From Corynebacterium rhinophilum (GTDB lineage Bacteria; Actinomycetota; Actinomycetes; Mycobacteriales; Mycobacteriaceae): a DNA stretch of 56,258 nucleotides. How positions within the stretch are numbered: position 1 is the first letter of the stretch; the number at the start of each line of letters is the position of its first letter. A program made the translations under genes and the position numbers. The notes under the pieces are model-generated. The model saw only the letters and a list, made by a program, of their open reading frames with translations, did no database searches and was not told where the DNA came from. The stretch is from contig NZ_JASPHQ010000017.1 in NCBI RefSeq assembly GCF_030227225.1, positions 1 through 56,258 of the forward strand. The letters are read 5' to 3'. Shown one piece after another: positions 5,024 to 40,961 of this stretch.

Positions 5024-7155
5024 TGCTTAGACATCCAGACCTTGACCGCATCCGTGGTCTTGAGGTCTGGAAGGTAGGCATGCATCGTCGCTAGACCAAT
5101 ATTTGGAAGTTTCAGCTCGTCGTCGTAGCACAGGAACCATGGGTGCTCTTCGGGCTGGAACTTCTTTTTGCTTGCCGCCAGGCTGTGGAATCCGTAGAAG
5201 GGCTCGACCTCTTTGCCTAGGCGCTGCAAGAGATGATCGAGCCAGGAGGGCGACGATGCTTGCCCGGCCAGAGGGGCGCCGGATAAGGAGATCCAGGTAC
5301 AGCCTTCGGCGTTTGCGATGAGCAGGGCTTCTGAGATGAGCAGTTCCATAACTCCTTTGAAGCCATGCTCGTTGCGGCGCATGACGTCGAGGGTATAACC
5401 CGCGATGGATCCGTTTTCGAATACGGGCATCCAGCTGGTGACGCCGTGGAGGGTGCCGTCCTGGGCTTCGGCAAGCAGCAGGCGAGTGCCGGCGACCTTC
5501 ATTTCTTCTAGCCCGCCTAAGGTAAATCCCATTTCGGGCAGGGCTTTTTCTGCTACCCATTCCTCGCTAAGGGCAGTGATCTTGGCGATGGTGGTCAGGT
5601 CGAGCTCAGACCAACTGATCCAGCGGGTGCGAATTCCTTCCTTGGTTGCTTTATTGCGGGCGGTGCGCACGTTCTGGAATTTCTTTCCCTTGAACTCGGT
5701 GCGGCAGGGCAAGACGGCCTCTTCGGCAACGTGGACGCGCTTGAGTTCTGGGTGGGCGGCGGCGAAGTCCGCGTTGACGGAATACCAAGCCACGGACCAA
5801 CCCTGGTTGGAGGCGAAGGTGGCGAATTCGGTGCTGATATCGCGGCCCACGGGTGTGCCTAGGGTGAGGGCGACGCCGTTGGAGACGCGGTAGGCCACGT
5901 AGGAATCGCCGTGGAAGAAGTAGCGGTTGGATTTCCACAGGGTCATAAAGGAGAGGTGGTCGCCCGTGCCGGATTCGAGCAGGCGGCGCGCGGTGCGGAT
6001 ATCTGCCGCGTTTGCTGGATCGGTGGGCCGGGAGAAGCCGCGATAGAGGCGGAAGGCCACGAAGATCCAAAAGGCGTTTCCTATCCACTCGTAGAGGAAC
6101 CAGGCGAGGGACGACGTGGGGATTACGTGGTGGGGAAGTATCAGGGCCACCACGGTGGGCAGGAAGCGCAACGGGGTTTCAGCGAGCACGTTCGGCAGCG
6201 GGGCGTGCAGCTGCGCGATGAGAATCCAGAGCACCGAACCGCATGCGGCGATGCCAGCGCTTAACAGAGCGGTGCGCAGGAGATAGGCGCGGTTTTCGTG
6301 GGTGGGAAACAGCCGCCGGTTAATGAGCAGGATTGCGAGCACGCTAAGCCAAGGCAGCGTGACAGGGATGAGCTCGGGGAGGAAAGAAAGCCTATAGGCA
6401 AGCAGGGCAAGGGCCGCTACCTGCGATAAGACCGCGAGCCTCCAGGCGGTGATGCGCCCGCGCACGAGGCCGAAGCAAAAGACGAGTTGCAGGATGAGTG
6501 GCAACAGGTTGGCTACCACGGGCCCGATTCCGCGGCTATCTTGCCAGAGCAGGCGCGTGACATCGGAAAATGGGCCTTGCGCCAACGGATCCAGGGCGAT
6601 GAAGGCGGGGCCTATCGCAACGCAGGCGACGCAGACGGCGATGAGCACGCGTTGTTCGCGGACGGTCGGCGTACCGGGTGCGGGTTTGGCGAGCAGCTGG
6701 CCGGCGGCGATGGATAGGGCGGCGGTAGTGATACCGAGGACATCGGAAAGCGCGCCCGCGTACAGCACGTACGTGGCGGTCAGGGAAAGAATGGAAATTC
6801 GGAGGCGGCGGCGCCACAGGCGGGGCATGAACGCGGAGGCGAACCCGGCCGCGCCTACGATGAATCCAATCGGACTGAGGAAGTCGGTGCTATTGGGCCA
6901 GTGCTTGGCGATGCCCAGCGTTATCGGCACTCCAATCGCCGTCGCCGCCAGCCCGGTGGTGAGGGTATAGGTGGAACCGAGGAGCCACTCGGCCGGGGCG
7001 AGCCAGGTGGCGATGAGCACGGTAATGATGATGGAAGCACCCGGGTGAGCGGTGGTGAGCGCAAGCCACGGTTTGAGGGGAAAATCGACGAGGTGTAGCG
7101 ACCACATGATGGCCAGCAGAGCGATGGAAACGGGAAGCTTTTTAAGAATGGACAT
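5020..7155 (-). CDS. Aminoacyl-lipid synthase (MprF-like, DUF2156), probable alanyl-diacylglycerol/alanyl-phosphatidylglycerol synthase
   Basis: A predicted 711-residue protein with about a dozen hydrophobic segments in the first 400 residues and a soluble C-terminal DUF2156 domain (about 410-710) of the MprF/aminoacyl-phosphatidylglycerol synthase family. The enzyme would transfer an amino acid from aminoacyl-tRNA to membrane lipid. In C. glutamicum a homologue makes alanyl-diacylglycerol, and together with a putative esterase encoded just upstream also alanyl-phosphatidylglycerol. The same gene pair occurs here: the esterase gene precedes and overlaps this one by 14 bp. I chose ATG 7155, which has GGGA upstream; an in-frame ATG at 7167 is possible. 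The amino-acid specificity is inferred from the C. glutamicum case. Its stop codon overlaps that of the convergent ABC permease. Confidence 0.85.
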   Translation of the reverse strand: MSILKKLPVSIALLAIMWSLHLVDFPLKPWLALTTAHPGASIIITVLIATWLAPAEWLLGSTYTLTTGLAATAIGVPITLGIAKHWPNSTDFLSPIGFIVGAAGFASAFMPRLWRRRLRISILSLTATYVLYAGALSDVLGITTAALSIAAGQLLAKPAPGTPTVREQRVLIAVCVACVAIGPAFIALDPLAQGPFSDVTRLLWQDSRGIGPVVANLLPLILQLVFCFGLVRGRITAWRLAVLSQVAALALLAYRLSFLPELIPVTLPWLSVLAILLINRRLFPTHENRAYLLRTALLSAGIAACGSVLWILIAQLHAPLPNVLAETPLRFLPTVVALILPHHVIPTSSLAWFLYEWIGNAFWIFVAFRLYRGFSRPTDPANAADIRTARRLLESGTGDHLSFMTLWKSNRYFFHGDSYVAYRVSNGVALTLGTPVGRDISTEFATFASNQGWSVAWYSVNADFAAAHPELKRVHVAEEAVLPCRTEFKGKKFQNVRTARNKATKEGIRTRWISWSELDLTTIAKITALSEEWVAEKALPEMGFTLGGLEEMKVAGTRLLLAEAQDGTLHGVTSWMPVFENGSIAGYTLDVMRRNEHGFKGVMELLISEALLIANAEGCTWISLSGAPLAGQASSPSWLDHLLQRLGKEVEPFYGFHSLAASKKKFQPEEHPWFLCYDDELKLPNIGLATMHAYLPDLKTTDAVKVWMSKH

Positions 7156-35508: not shown

Positions 35509-37416
35509 CTAATCTACCTCGGTGAACTTGCGGTCCCAGGAGGAGCGGACGGGGTTGGCATCGGCAAGCAGGATATCGAAGCGGTCATTGGCGATCTCGA
35601 CGATTTCACTTAACGCAATGCGGTATTCCTGCGCATCGGAATTAGCGAGGCGCCGCACGCCGGCGTCGATCACACGCTCCACCGTGTCGTTGGTATCGAG
35701 GTACGCGACGAACGGCATACCAAAGCGCTCGCGGTAGGCGGCGGACAGCTCGGTAATGCGTTCGGTTTGCACGTCGTCGAGCTCGCTCAGCCCGAGCGAT
35801 CCGCGGTCAGCGGAAATATTCGCTGCCTCATCAGACGAGGCCAGTAGCAGCTCGTCCATGGCTGGGTAGTCGTGGATGAGCGCATCGCGCCGGTCCGCAT
35901 CCGCGGTCAGCACGGCGACCTGGACGGCGGCGCGCAGCTCGTTGACATCGCTAAACGGCCGGGACTGCCAGGCCAGCTCGAGCGGCCAGGTTTCATTATT
36001 GAATAGCGGGCGCAGCGCGGCGGTAAACTCCTCACGCGAGGCCTCATTAAGCTCGTTAAGGCTCACGCCCTTGCCATCGGCGCGCGAGACCTGCGCGCTC
36101 GCGCTGCCGGTGTGGAAGAACAACAAGTTGAGCACGATTGCGGTAATCGCGCCGATGGACATGCCAGAAGAAACGAAGGTCTGCGCCCACTCCGGGAAGG
36201 CACTGGCTACCTCCGGCTTGAAGGTCACCAGCATGGCCAGGCCCAGTGCGGAGGTGACGATGACGGAGTTGCGGCCATCGCTGAGATCTGACTTAGCGAT
36301 GGTCTGCAGGCCCACCCACGCCACGTTGGCAAAAAGCGCTAGCGATGCGCCGCCGAGCACCGGCGACGGAATCGCAGCAACGACCGCGCCGGCCTTCGGC
36401 AAAAGACCCAGCACAATCATGAACCCCGCAGCCGCCACGGCCACCCAGCGCGATTTCACGTTGGTCAAGCGCACCAGGCCAACGTTTTGCGCAAAGCAGG
36501 TATAGGGGAACGAATTCATCACGCCGCCTACTAGGGTGGAGACACCATCGGCGCGGATGGCGCGCACCACGTCATCGCGGCGGATGCGCTTTTTGACGAT
36601 TTCACCGGTGGCAAACACATCGCCAGTCGTTTCCACCATGGTGATGATCATGACGATAATCAGCGAGAAAATCGCCACGAGGTCGAATTGCGGCATGCCG
36701 AAATAAAACGGTGTGGTAATGCCGAGGGCGGGGGAGGAGGAGACTTCGCTAAAGGAGGCATCGCCAAGCGCGAGCGCCACGCCCGTGCCCAGCACCAAGC
36801 CGATGAGCACCGCCAACGTACCCACGAAGCCGGAGGAAAAACGCTGCACCAAAATGATGACCGCGAGCGTGCCAAAGCCATAGAGCAAATCGCGCGTGGC
36901 CGGCACGCCCTCGGCATAATTGACAAAGTCATTGGCCGATACCGCCAGCAGCGAAGTACCCATCACCAGCAGCACTGAACCGGTAACCACCGGTGGGAAG
37001 AAACGCAGCACCTTGCCAAAGACCGGCGCGGCGAAGAAGGTAAAAAGGCCTGCGACGATGATGGCGCCGTAAATCGTGGGCAGCGAAGCCACCCCGCCCT
37101 CGCCATCGGTGGCGCCGAGGCCAATCGCGATGATGGGCGATACCGCCGTCGTGGTCACGCCCTGCACGATGGGCAGGCGCACGCCAATATGCTTGCCGAT
37201 GCCCACCGACTGAATAATCGTCGCAATACCGCAGGTTAAAAGGTCGGCATTGATGAGGTGGATGGTCGTTTCCGCATCCAGGTTCAACGAGCTGGCGATG
37301 AGCAGCGGGACGATGACCGCCCCGGCATAAAACGCGAGGACGTGCTGCAGCCCAAGGGCGGCGAGTTTCGGCGCGGGGGGAACGATGTCTACGGGGTGCT
37401 TGGGCTGGGACGCCAC
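35509..37416 (-). CDS. NCS2 purine/urate permease fused to an OHCU-decarboxylase-like domain
   Basis: A 635-residue fusion. Residues 1 to about 440 are a nucleobase:cation symporter-2 permease of the urate/xanthine group, with LGLQHVLAFYAG in helix 1 and the NAT signature-like QNVGLVRLTN. Residues about 450-635 resemble OHCU decarboxylase, the enzyme that turns the uricase product pathway intermediate into S-allantoin. Landmarks are LNELNEASREEF, AYRERFGMPF and IALSEIVEIANDR. In the usual family motif the catalytic HP is preceded by LIRA; here the segment is LIHDYP, so Tyr517 replaces the His, and the usual Glu-Gln is Asp537-Arg538. The domain may be inactive or altered. No uricase or hydroxyisourate hydrolase is in the window. 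GTG 37416 follows AAGGAGG. Confidence 0.85.
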   Translation of the reverse strand: MASQPKHPVDIVPPAPKLAALGLQHVLAFYAGAVIVPLLIASSLNLDAETTIHLINADLLTCGIATIIQSVGIGKHIGVRLPIVQGVTTTAVSPIIAIGLGATDGEGGVASLPTIYGAIIVAGLFTFFAAPVFGKVLRFFPPVVTGSVLLVMGTSLLAVSANDFVNYAEGVPATRDLLYGFGTLAVIILVQRFSSGFVGTLAVLIGLVLGTGVALALGDASFSEVSSSPALGITTPFYFGMPQFDLVAIFSLIIVMIITMVETTGDVFATGEIVKKRIRRDDVVRAIRADGVSTLVGGVMNSFPYTCFAQNVGLVRLTNVKSRWVAVAAAGFMIVLGLLPKAGAVVAAIPSPVLGGASLALFANVAWVGLQTIAKSDLSDGRNSVIVTSALGLAMLVTFKPEVASAFPEWAQTFVSSGMSIGAITAIVLNLLFFHTGSASAQVSRADGKGVSLNELNEASREEFTAALRPLFNNETWPLELAWQSRPFSDVNELRAAVQVAVLTADADRRDALIHDYPAMDELLLASSDEAANISADRGSLGLSELDDVQTERITELSAAYRERFGMPFVAYLDTNDTVERVIDAGVRRLANSDAQEYRIALSEIVEIANDRFDILLADANPVRSSWDRKFTEVD

Positions 37417-37726: not shown

Positions 37727-39814
37727 ATGACTACCGCAACTAAGCCCCAGCAGTATCAAGGGTGGGAAGGTTTTGCGCCCGGCCCTTGGACCGAGGGCAT
37801 CAATGTCCGCGATTTCATTCAGCGCAACTACACGCCTTTTAACGGCGATTCCAGCTTCCTCGCTGGACCCACCGATAAGACGCTGCGCGTGTGGGACACC
37901 CTGGAAAAGAACTACCTGTCGGTCGAGCGCGAAAAGCGCATTTATGACGTCGATACGCACACCCCGACCGATATCGATGCCTTCCCGGCTGGCTATATCT
38001 CAGAAGACGATGACGTCATCGTCGGCCTGCAAACCGATACGCCGCTCAAGCGCGCTATGATGCCGTTCGGCGGCTGGCGCATGGTCAAGCAGGCCATCGG
38101 CGAGGCGGGCAAAGAGGTAGACCCCGAGGTGGAGAAGATCTTCACCCGCTACCGCAAGACCCACAATGATGCGGTCTTCGATATCTACACCCCGCGCATT
38201 CGCGCCGCCCGTTCATCACACATCATCACCGGCTTGCCCGATGCCTATGGCCGCGGCCGCATCATCGGCGATTACCGCCGCGTGGCGCTGTACGGCGTGG
38301 ACTACCTCATCCAGGAAAAGATTAAGGCCCGCGATGCCATTGCCGATGCCGGCTTTTCCGAGCACTGGGCCCGCTACCGCGAGGAGCACTCCGAGCAGAT
38401 CAAGGCCCTGAAGAAGCTCAAGGCGATGGCCGAGTCCTACGGTTTTGACATCTCCGAGCCGGCGCGCACCGCCCACGAGGCCGTGCAGTGGACCTACTTT
38501 GGCTACCTCGCCTCCATCAAGTCGCAGGATGGTGCCGCCATGTCCATCGGCCGCCTGTCTGCGTTCTTCGACTGCTACTTCGAGCGCGACTTGGCCGCTG
38601 GCATCATCACCGAGGAGCAGGCACAGGAAATCATCGACGCGCTCGTGCTGAAGCTGCGCATCGTCCGCTTCCTGCGCACCATCGACTATGACCAGATTTT
38701 CTCCGGCGACCCGTACTGGGCCACCTGGTCCGATGCCGGCTTCGGCAGCGATGGCCGCCACATGGTCACCAAGACTTCCTTCCGCCTCCTGCAGACCCTG
38801 ATCAACCTGGGGCCATCACCGGAGCCGAATATCACCATTTTCTGGGATCCGGAGCTGCCTGCAGGCTACAAGGAATTCTGCGCGCACATCTCCATCGAAA
38901 CCTCCTCCATCCAGTACGAGTCTGACCGCCAGATTCGCGACGAGTGGGGCGATGACGCGGCGATTGCCTGCTGCGTGTCCCCGATGGAAGTGGGCAAGCA
39001 GATGCAGTTCTTCGGCGCCCGCGTCAATGCCGCCAAGGCTCTGCTCTACGCCATGAACGGCGGCCGGGATGAGGTCTCCGGCAAGCAAGTCGTCGAAGGC
39101 TATGAGCCGATTCAGGGCGATGGCCCGTTGGATTTCGACGAGGTCTGGCAAAAGTACGAGGAGATGCTGGACTGGGTGGTTGGCACCTACGTCGAGGCCC
39201 TGAACATCATCCACTACTCGCACGATAAGTACGCCTACGAGGCCGTGGAGATGGCGCTGCATGATTCCAATATCATCCGCTCCATGGGCTGCGGCATCGC
39301 GGGACTATCCATCGTTGCCGATTCGCTTTCTGCCATCAAGTACGCCAAGGTCACCCCGGTCCGCGATGGGACCGGACTGATTACGGATTACATCACTGAG
39401 GGCGAGTTCCCGTTCTACGGCAACGACGATGACCGCGCCGATGACATCGCTGCCACCATCGTGCACACCGTGATGGAAAAGATTAAGGCCATCCCGATGT
39501 ATCGCAATGCCATCCCCACCCAGTCCGTGCTGACCATTACCTCTAACGTGGTCTACGGCAAGGCAACAGGTTCCTTCCCGTCAGGCCACAAGGCCGGCAC
39601 TCCCTTCTCCCCGGGGGCTAACCCCGAAAACGGTGCGGATAACCACGGCATGGTCGCCTCCATGCTGTCGGTGGGCAAGCTGGATTACAAGGATGCCCTG
39701 GACGGCATCTCGCTGACCAATACCATCACCCCGTCCGGATTGGGCCGCACCCCAGAAGAGCGCATCACCAACCTAGTCGGCGTGCTGGATGCCGGCTTCA
39801 TCATGGAACAATAA
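37727..39814 (+). CDS. pflB: Pyruvate formate-lyase catalytic subunit lacking the glycyl-radical domain
   Basis: A 695-residue protein that would cleave pyruvate with CoA to acetyl-CoA and formate under anaerobic conditions. It is collinear with E. coli PflB (760 residues) through [19 protein letters not shown], with the catalytic Cys pair at residues 415-416, then [20 protein letters not shown] and [17 protein letters not shown]. It ends at [14 protein letters not shown] plus a few residues, where E. coli PflB continues into its roughly 60-residue glycyl-radical domain. That domain is encoded by the next gene. ATG 37727 has AAGGGA upstream; longer starts lack a ribosome-binding site. The clean stop, 23-bp spacer and new ribosome-binding site argue against a frameshift. 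Confidence 0.93.
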
Positions 39815-39837
39815 GAATCACGACAAGGAGAACCATT

Positions 39838-40089
39838 ATGGCAACCCCAACCTTTGCAGAACGCCTTTCAGACATGAAGGCCAGCCGCGACGAGCACAAG
39901 ATGAACTCTGGCCTGTACCACGCCAATATCAACGTGTTGGATAAGTCCACGCTGGAAGATGCCGTCGAGCACCCAGAGAAGTACCCGAACCTCACCGTTC
40001 GCGTCTCTGGCTACGCGGTCAACTTTGTCAAGCTCACCAAGGAGCAGCAGCTTGACGTCATCTCCCGCACCTTCCACCAGGGTTCATAA
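39838..40089 (+). CDS. Separate glycyl-radical subunit of pyruvate formate-lyase (GrcA/YfiD-like)
   Basis: An 83-residue protein. Residues 1-25 are a hydrophilic leader not found at this position in full-length PflB; residues about 27-83 match the PflB C-terminal domain ([21 protein letters not shown], then RVSGYAV and [14 protein letters not shown]). Gly58 in RVSGY is the radical-bearing residue. The stand-alone E. coli protein YfiD/GrcA repairs oxygen-cut PflB with the same domain, but there PflB keeps its own. Here PflB has none, so this subunit should be essential for activity. AAGGAGA lies nine bases upstream of ATG, and pflA follows after 2 bp. Confidence 0.93.
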
Positions 40090-40091
40090 TC

Positions 40092-40961
40092 ATGGCTGAT
40101 GGCATTACTGGTGTGGTCACCCTGTCGCCGGAATCCGGCGAGCGCGTTCGCGGTGTTGCCGCGGGCCTGGGAACCGACCACGAACTCGATGAGATTACCC
40201 GCCCCGAGCTCATGGAGGCGCGCCGCACCGGCGATATTGCCCTCGTGCACTCTTGGGAGCTGGTAACCGCCGTCGACGGCCCGGGCACCCGCATGACCAT
40301 GTTCATGTCCGGCTGCCCCCTGCGCTGCCAGTATTGCCATAACCCGGACACCATGGAGATGAAGACCGGCACCTTGGAGCGGGTCGACGATGTGGTCAAA
40401 CGTATTAAGCGCTATAAGCCCATCTTCCAAGCTTCCGGTGGCGGCCTGACCATCTCTGGTGGTGAGCCCCTCTTCCAGATTGCCTTTACTCGCCGCGTCC
40501 TCAAGGAAGTCCACGACGCCGGCATCCACACCACCATCGATACCTCCGGTTTCTTAGGCTCGCGCCTGCGCGATGAGGATCTAGACAATATCGACCTGGT
40601 GCTACTGGACGTGAAGTCGGGCGATGAGGAAACCTATCAGCGCGTAACGAGGCGGCAGTTGCAGCCCACGCTCGATTTTGGTGACCGCCTCAACGCGATA
40701 GGCAAGCCGGTGTGGATTCGCTTCGTCGTCGTACCGGGCCTGACGGATTCGGCCGAGAACGTCGAAAACGTCGCCTCCATCGTGGCGCGGTGGAAATCCA
40801 ATGTGGAGCGCGTCGAGGTCCTGCCCTTCCACAATATGGGCAAGGACAAGTGGGAGGGGCTCGATATGACCTACCACTTGGCAGATACCAAGCCACCGAA
40901 ACCGGAGGACGTGGAAAAAGTCCGCGACGTTTTCCGCGCGAAGGGCCTAGAGGTTTACTAA
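40092..40961 (+). CDS. pflA: Pyruvate formate-lyase activating enzyme (radical SAM)
   Basis: A 289-residue radical-SAM enzyme that abstracts hydrogen from the glycyl-radical Gly. The cluster motif is CPLRCQYC (Cys75, 79, 82), followed by HNPDT; GGGLTISGGEPLFQ binds SAM; LDVKSGDEETYQ and LPFHNMGKDKWE are typical of PflA. Relative to E. coli PflA it has about 40 extra residues at the N terminus. Third gene of the pfl operon, 2 bp after the glycyl-radical subunit gene. In this system it must activate a free small subunit or a two-protein complex. Confidence 0.95.
   Translation: MADGITGVVTLSPESGERVRGVAAGLGTDHELDEITRPELMEARRTGDIALVHSWELVTAVDGPGTRMTMFMSGCPLRCQYCHNPDTMEMKTGTLERVDDVVKRIKRYKPIFQASGGGLTISGGEPLFQIAFTRRVLKEVHDAGIHTTIDTSGFLGSRLRDEDLDNIDLVLLDVKSGDEETYQRVTRRQLQPTLDFGDRLNAIGKPVWIRFVVVPGLTDSAENVENVASIVARWKSNVERVEVLPFHNMGKDKWEGLDMTYHLADTKPPKPEDVEKVRDVFRAKGLEVY

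Follow-up and report, generated by a model that had tools for sequence, protein, structure and literature searches.

The pflB locus of Corynebacterium rhinophilum raises the question of whether a pyruvate formate-lyase (PFL) can depend on a glycyl radical carried by a separate protein. Within the window, as we call the whole 56,258-nt stretch of DNA analysed here, three consecutive genes lie on the plus strand. The first, pflB (37727–39814), encodes a 695-residue PFL catalytic chain that lacks a glycyl-radical domain and ends at a TAA stop codon (39812–39814); its active-site pair, Cys415-Cys416 (codons at 38969–38974), aligns with C418/C419 of E. coli PflB. After a 23-bp spacer (39815–39837) containing an AAGGAGA site at 39825–39831, the second gene (39838–40089) encodes an 83-residue protein, called GrcA2 by NCBI, with a predicted radical glycine, Gly58, in an RVSGY motif (codon at 40009–40011); this glycine is kept in 26 of 26 aligned small proteins. 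The third, pflA, encodes the radical-SAM activating enzyme (40092–40961) and starts 2 bp past the stop of the small gene. An earlier note, made from the letters alone, had described just this arrangement of a body ending ahead of its glycyl-radical domain, a small gene with its own ribosome site and an adjoining pflA, and the coordinates, the domain division and the E. coli alignment given below all bear it out. The neighbours are ordinary: a nucleobase permease upstream, and a prolyl-aminopeptidase-like hydrolase and an HflK-like protein downstream. The permease (35509–37416, minus strand) is of the xanthine/uracil type, and its residues 460–613 resemble the OHCU decarboxylase of urate breakdown, with a score of 73.1 bits that lies below that model's cut-off of 96.25.

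Profile searches place the break inside the glycyl-radical domain. Pfam family PF02901 matches the body (E = 9.8e-196), and the 106 positions of PF01228 (Gly_radical) are cut between 65 and 66, with positions 1–65 in the body and 66–106 in the small protein. All five of R176, A272, F327, W333 and R435 of E. coli PflB, which we take to be active-site or barrel positions, are retained in the body. The alignment with E. coli PflB (PDB 1h16/2pfl) runs from residue 12 to 691 (E = 7.7e-262), the catalytic cysteines are conserved, and an activase gene lies nearby in both species. E. coli PflB, however, carries Gly734 on the same chain, whereas the window's body ends near E. coli residue 696 and the alignment contains no counterpart of G734 in its 695 residues. 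The body has the adjacent cysteine pair of a type 1 PFL, but its chain ends ahead of the domain that would bring the radical glycine onto the same polypeptide. Together with its small partner it would be expected to form formate and acetyl-CoA from pyruvate and CoA, as PFL type 1 does.

The curated family models support the same division. By NCBIfam, the body is a formate C-acetyltransferase and the small protein a GrcA2, each scoring above its curated cut-off. The body alone scores 998 bits against the 994.2 of TIGR01255, a narrow margin because that model includes the missing domain, and pflA scores 309.1 bits against the 231.75 of TIGR02493. The small protein reaches 162.2 bits with NF008341 (GrcA2; cut-off 145), and falls below the cut-offs both of NF038360 (GrcA3; 101.8 bits, cut-off 158) and of TIGR04365, the classic GrcA/YfiD model (86.8 bits, cut-off 170), with which it aligns over the final part alone, positions 64–124 of 126.

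We examined how widely the two-gene form is distributed. Among the 80 genome loci nearest to the small protein, 58 have two genes and 22 a single frame. The two-gene loci come from Corynebacterium, Actinomyces, Schaalia, Trueperella, Arcanobacterium, Varibaculum, Rothia, Brachybacterium, Dermabacter, Helcobacillus, Propionibacterium, Pseudactinotalea and other genera, and they include one locus cut by a contig end (L009) and one with a body remnant (L007). In 55 of these 58 loci pflA lies downstream; in L018 it is 1.75 kb off. The body remnant, upstream of position 5639 in a Corynebacterium phocae contig, comprises the last 100 residues ahead of an intact small gene and pflA, and represents either a disrupted locus or an assembly fault. 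The one-frame loci belong to Bifidobacteriaceae (20), an Oscillospiraceae bacterium (1) and Corynebacterium (1). This last locus (L013:1684-4095, Corynebacterium sp. Marseille-P4321) lacks the stop of its relatives, so that a single open frame covers both body and small subunit; it retains the leader and a ribosome-like site, and may be a re-fusion or an error.

We also surveyed genome samples. PF01228 was found in 37 of 81 Corynebacterium genomes, in one of them through NrdD alone; the 36 genomes with a PFL all have the split form (36/36, counted from 35 fetched loci checked for stops by script plus the window), with the small gene directly downstream. For Actinomycetaceae, TIGR01255 matched in 72 of 81 genomes, of which 50 count as split, the body match and a single small match lying close together on one contig, while 21 are fused and 1 has another glycyl radical enzyme alone; none of the 81 genomes holds the split and fused forms together. 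In 12 of these 50 split genomes the reading frame is the same for both parts, and the fetched DNA has a stop between them in all 12; the other 38 were called split from their differing listed open frames, and some of these were also read as loci. Microbacteriaceae contributed matches in 6 of 59 genomes, 3 of them split (G149, G503 and G542, all read) and 3 fused. In a class-wide sample, 49 of 393 genomes matched: 3 split, 44 in which a long frame encodes one chain, one truncated at a contig end (G088) and one partial (G391). In 27 loci of this class-wide match group, no stop interrupts the 479 codons or more that precede the glycyl-radical domain. Among the 19 genomes that were reached by way of loci, 17 have the split form and lack a fused copy, 1 is in-frame (L013) and 1 is fused. 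The earlier note had asked whether the small gene always accompanies truncated bodies. In the genome samples searched, including the 36 Corynebacterium and 50 Actinomycetaceae, every split body has a small gene nearby, and no genome has both forms.

We compared the gene junctions of 91 split loci (87 actinobacterial and 4 clostridial) that are distinct in small protein and spacer. Relative frames 0, 1 and 2 occur 36, 28 and 27 times, and the small gene starts with ATG in 90 loci and with GTG in 1. Spacers reach 243 nt in Clostridia. An AAGGAG sequence is matched in five to six of its six places in 87 of the 91 loci versus 48 of 810 control ATGs inside bodies, a contrast inflated by the use of the ribosome site in choosing the start itself. 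Strong RNA hairpins (z −5.2 to −7.9) lie between body stop and small gene in the spacers of L019, L026, L045, L047, L049 and L115, which belong to Corynebacterium, Schaalia and Rothia. The earlier note had named an error or a frameshift as fatal to its reading. It is hardly credible that a sequencing error, a pseudogene or a programmed frameshift or read-through yielding one polypeptide explains the break: although the second part follows in frame after a stop in 36 of 91 loci and the stop is missing in one genome (L013), the other two frames are used in 55 of 91, actinobacterial spacers range from −4 to 225 nt, all three stop codons are represented, each of the 36 sampled Corynebacterium genomes with a PFL is split, and a query with the L013 junction returned no named Corynebacterium one-chain form among the best 120 matches, most of them nameless, from 5.8 billion proteins. 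An error or frameshift was rejected as a general account on the mixed frames, the spacer range and the splits throughout the genus sample.

A second concern was that the small protein might be a mere spare part, in the sense of E. coli GrcA/YfiD, for an enzyme with its own glycine. The C. rhinophilum assembly (2.47 Mb, completeness 100, contamination 0.28) allowed this to be addressed by a whole-genome profile search, which returned a single PF02901 match and a PF01228 divided into its two halves, and neither a second PFL body nor any other PF01228 match. The full-length PflB elsewhere in the genome that would have undercut the earlier note is thus missing from these searches, and so is the partner that defines a classic GrcA, a PFL with its own radical glycine, since the one PFL in this genome is glycine-less. 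A spare-part role is suggested by the NCBIfam name and by the domain, which is the GrcA domain, as well as by an extra, unlinked small copy in one metagenome-assembled genome (MAG). Against it stand the body without a glycine domain, the lack of any other PFL in the genome and the shortfall with the classic GrcA model, and we consider such a role very unlikely. The small protein is a member of NF008341 (“autonomous glycyl radical cofactor GrcA2”), as NCBI-named Corynebacterium matches mostly are by name, but whereas that name implies a spare part, the genome evidence makes this protein the only radical subunit. The MAG with the extra copy (G486, Cellulomonadaceae) has a split PFL, and its second small gene (L199 = G486:C27, minus strand, 735–1094) encodes a 119-residue protein that resembles a GrcA-style spare for a split enzyme; by eye, it has an R9/M13/R17-like pattern.

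We therefore return to the reading of the locus as an obligate two-component PFL with a radical subunit acting in trans, which we regard as highly probable. In such an enzyme, the barrel and the substrate site would belong to the 695-residue body, together with the Cys415-Cys416 pair, and the 83-residue partner would carry the only glycyl radical, at Gly58. PflA, whose gene belongs to the same cluster, would install the radical on Gly58 of a small protein seated in the body. Transfer from Gly58 to Cys416 in trans would follow, just as GrcA serves PflB in E. coli. The support computed here consists of gene structure, conservation, exclusive co-occurrence in the samples and a compatible fission history; we infer complex formation, activation in trans and docking by the leader. 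Weighing against the reading are the in-frame L013, the L007 contig with its body remnant and the second small gene of G486, besides the activation of E. coli tPFL and the modest structure models described below. The genetic core of the earlier note's proposal stands (no other PFL, a small gene near each split body, mutually exclusive forms), but the oxygen-exposed life style that it invoked proved to be no simple predictor.

Work on E. coli offers a close comparison. E. coli GrcA/YfiD (PDB 6owr) has the same glycyl-radical domain in stand-alone form (E = 1.1e-20 with the window's protein) and, together with PflA, can serve a glycine-less PFL in trans (PMC8683613 and PMC12338860). In Table 1 of PMC12338860, E. 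coli PflB G734A forms intermediate amounts of formate with GrcA and none without it, and PMC8683613 reports that YfiD gains a radical only when a PFL variant is present. The same paper describes a truncated E. coli enzyme, tPFL (residues 1–695), whose activation with YfiD is 32-fold less than that of cPFL, although it turns over normally once activated, and which an N-terminally truncated YfiD activates 5.4-fold better. Because the window's body matches this poorly activated tPFL, a compensating contact would have to exist in the split enzyme. Two differences from YfiD bear on this comparison. YfiD, as presented in PMC8683613, repairs a PFL that normally has its own glycine, whereas the window has no alternative glycine; and the YfiD N-terminus is described there as a disordered stretch of 60 residues, whereas the window's small protein has a leader of 24. 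The short leader replacing the long YfiD tail may have solved the docking problem of tPFL.

The small subunit begins with a leader (residues 1–24, 39838–39909, plus strand). Split loci read NLVGILDAGF and soon after a stop, followed by a leader ending in [10 protein letters not shown], and Cellulomonas-type fused relatives, for which one sequence example at the junction is [22 protein letters not shown], run on at the point where split loci have a stop and leader, which identifies the leader as new. The earlier note had also called it new, and it is indeed missing in the one-chain relatives compared, apart from the in-frame L013. Residues 1–25 vary threefold more than the remainder (mean difference 0.43 versus 0.14), yet all 71 actinobacterial small proteins with a length of 83 residues share R9, M13 and R17. 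Across the full set of 91 loci, each of the three is present in 86, with the 4 clostridial loci among the exceptions. Spaced by four, these residues fall on one face of a helix at residues 6–19 in a modest structure model (pLDDT 66.2, pTM 0.44, with residues 19–32 below 50); a model of the natural one-chain L013 protein is similar in quality (pLDDT 66.7) and has its linker under 50. The leader is probably helical and may dock the small subunit on the body. Across 87 loci, distances among bodies track those among small proteins (r = 0.715; the highest value in 1000 permutations was 0.10), a correlation that shared descent alone would also produce.

To place the split in the history of the family, we built trees of PFL bodies. 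A first tree, of 91 bodies, places the actinobacterial splits apart from the clostridial ones, each in a well supported region, and forcing all splits into one clade costs 295.5 log-likelihood units and is rejected (AU p = 5.29e-08). By contrast, a single clade of the actinobacterial splits plus L013 is not rejected (p = 0.899), also after fused Cellulomonas-type relatives are added (p = 0.739), which permits one origin but falls short of demonstrating it; the constrained trees score above the free quick trees, which means that the quick searches had missed them. In the first tree, L061 and L013, both fused, lay among the splits, and the position of the fused bifidobacteria was poorly resolved. 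In a later tree, the split L062 sits among fused relatives with some support (92), which goes against a single fission; its leader resembles the others. The actinobacterial splits are thus compatible with one fission that added the leader: a one-chain actinobacterial PFL would have broken at the NLVGILDAG / [10 protein letters not shown] junction and gained a leader. L061 itself, from Oscillospiraceae bacterium HV4-5-C5C, encodes a one-chain PFL that is of the actinobacterial type and shares 78% identity with the window's body, and its presence in a clostridial genome is an apparent cross-phylum transfer.

A second split is found in Clostridia, where the body match stops at TIGR01255 position 663–668 in at least 4 of 118 genomes. 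Reading the DNA of four such loci (L188–L191) revealed a separate radical protein of 80–81 residues downstream; the G699 small protein, the sole clostridial one scored, exceeds the GrcA3 cut-off. The rejection of a single clade of all splits makes this an independent fission. Its breakpoint also differs, because the NLVxLLDGY strand belongs to the small protein in Clostridia and to the body in actinobacteria. The clostridial NF038360 (GrcA3) systems resemble the window in their glycine-less body and nearby radical protein of about 80 residues but differ in that two of them have a cysteine protein gene between the two genes (L191:2554-2763 and L188:2521-2709, both plus strand).

These cysteine proteins have 63–70 residues, and the one in L191 has no NCBIfam match. 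Its 61 database relatives are mostly unnamed or “hypothetical protein”, several of them from Lachnospiraceae. Its N-terminal part aligns over 29 columns with the beginning of the radical subunit (hhalign 94.4%); in place of an SGY glycine it has a conserved CxDCAKGxxAC motif, which is less well kept in L188. In L189 and L190 the body carries a similar fused tail. The family of about 70 residues, whose gene lies between body and radical subunit in 2 of the 4 clostridial loci read, may be seen as keeping the N-terminal half of the radical protein, with the glycine half replaced by the conserved cysteine motif CxDCAKGxxACxVPTLHEG. A broad reading would make the split PFLs convergent systems, with a swappable, separately dosed radical subunit docked through the leader face R9-M13-R17, and the clostridial proteins a radical-less, redox-sensing cap that holds the empty site; we think it quite improbable that all of this holds.

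Why the radical domain was separated admits more than one answer. One possibility is expression control, in which separate ribosome sites and some spacer hairpins set the ratio of radical subunit to body. Among actinobacterial spacers of at least 60 nt, 11 of 31 fold with z below −3 relative to dinucleotide shuffles; however, the other 20 do not fold in this way and the window's own spacer has merely 23 nt, and we consider this account unlikely. Somewhat stronger, though still the less probable view, is that the split is obligate but selectively neutral, a fission fixed by drift that spread with its gene cluster and brought no advantage in repair or dosage. Both forms persist, a possible re-fusion exists (L013), and life style predicts the split in no simple way, given that some Clostridia are split and other actinobacteria one-chain. 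On the other hand, two independent fissions, the presence of the split across many families and the invariant leader positions all hint that the separate piece has a function under selection. As for the advantage proposed in the earlier note, replacement of a small subunit that oxygen has damaged is plausible; cleavage at the glycine would, however, leave a 57-residue fragment of the small protein that would still need displacement.

The protein parts of this system had already been named, and what is new to our searches is the view of such named families, a PFL body and a small radical protein, as an obligate pair that evolved twice; in the open-access (PMC) literature we found no description of an obligate split PFL. 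PDB chain 38la ends just before the radical domain, and 38lb continues for 50-odd residues past that point, the first of them resembling the clostridial split tail; either a natural split or a cut construct could account for both. Together with the NCBI GrcA2 and GrcA3 models, these chains suggest that others have noticed pieces of split PFLs, and recent work by others on such enzymes is likely. If the obligate pairing is true, PFL in many actinobacteria, including common human-associated genera, needs no radical on the same chain, and “GrcA2” genes are to be annotated as essential subunits rather than spares. Such loci would also offer natural systems for radical installation, docking and oxygen repair that need no artificial cutting of the enzyme, and two independent fissions pose directly the question of why the radical domain would be separated. 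Short frames with glycyl-radical domains (82–110 codons) also occur in Bacillota (G859:C1:187279-187485, G958:C1:260365-260577 and G920:C22:46401-46604), and these three may be further split, or broken, glycyl radical enzymes.
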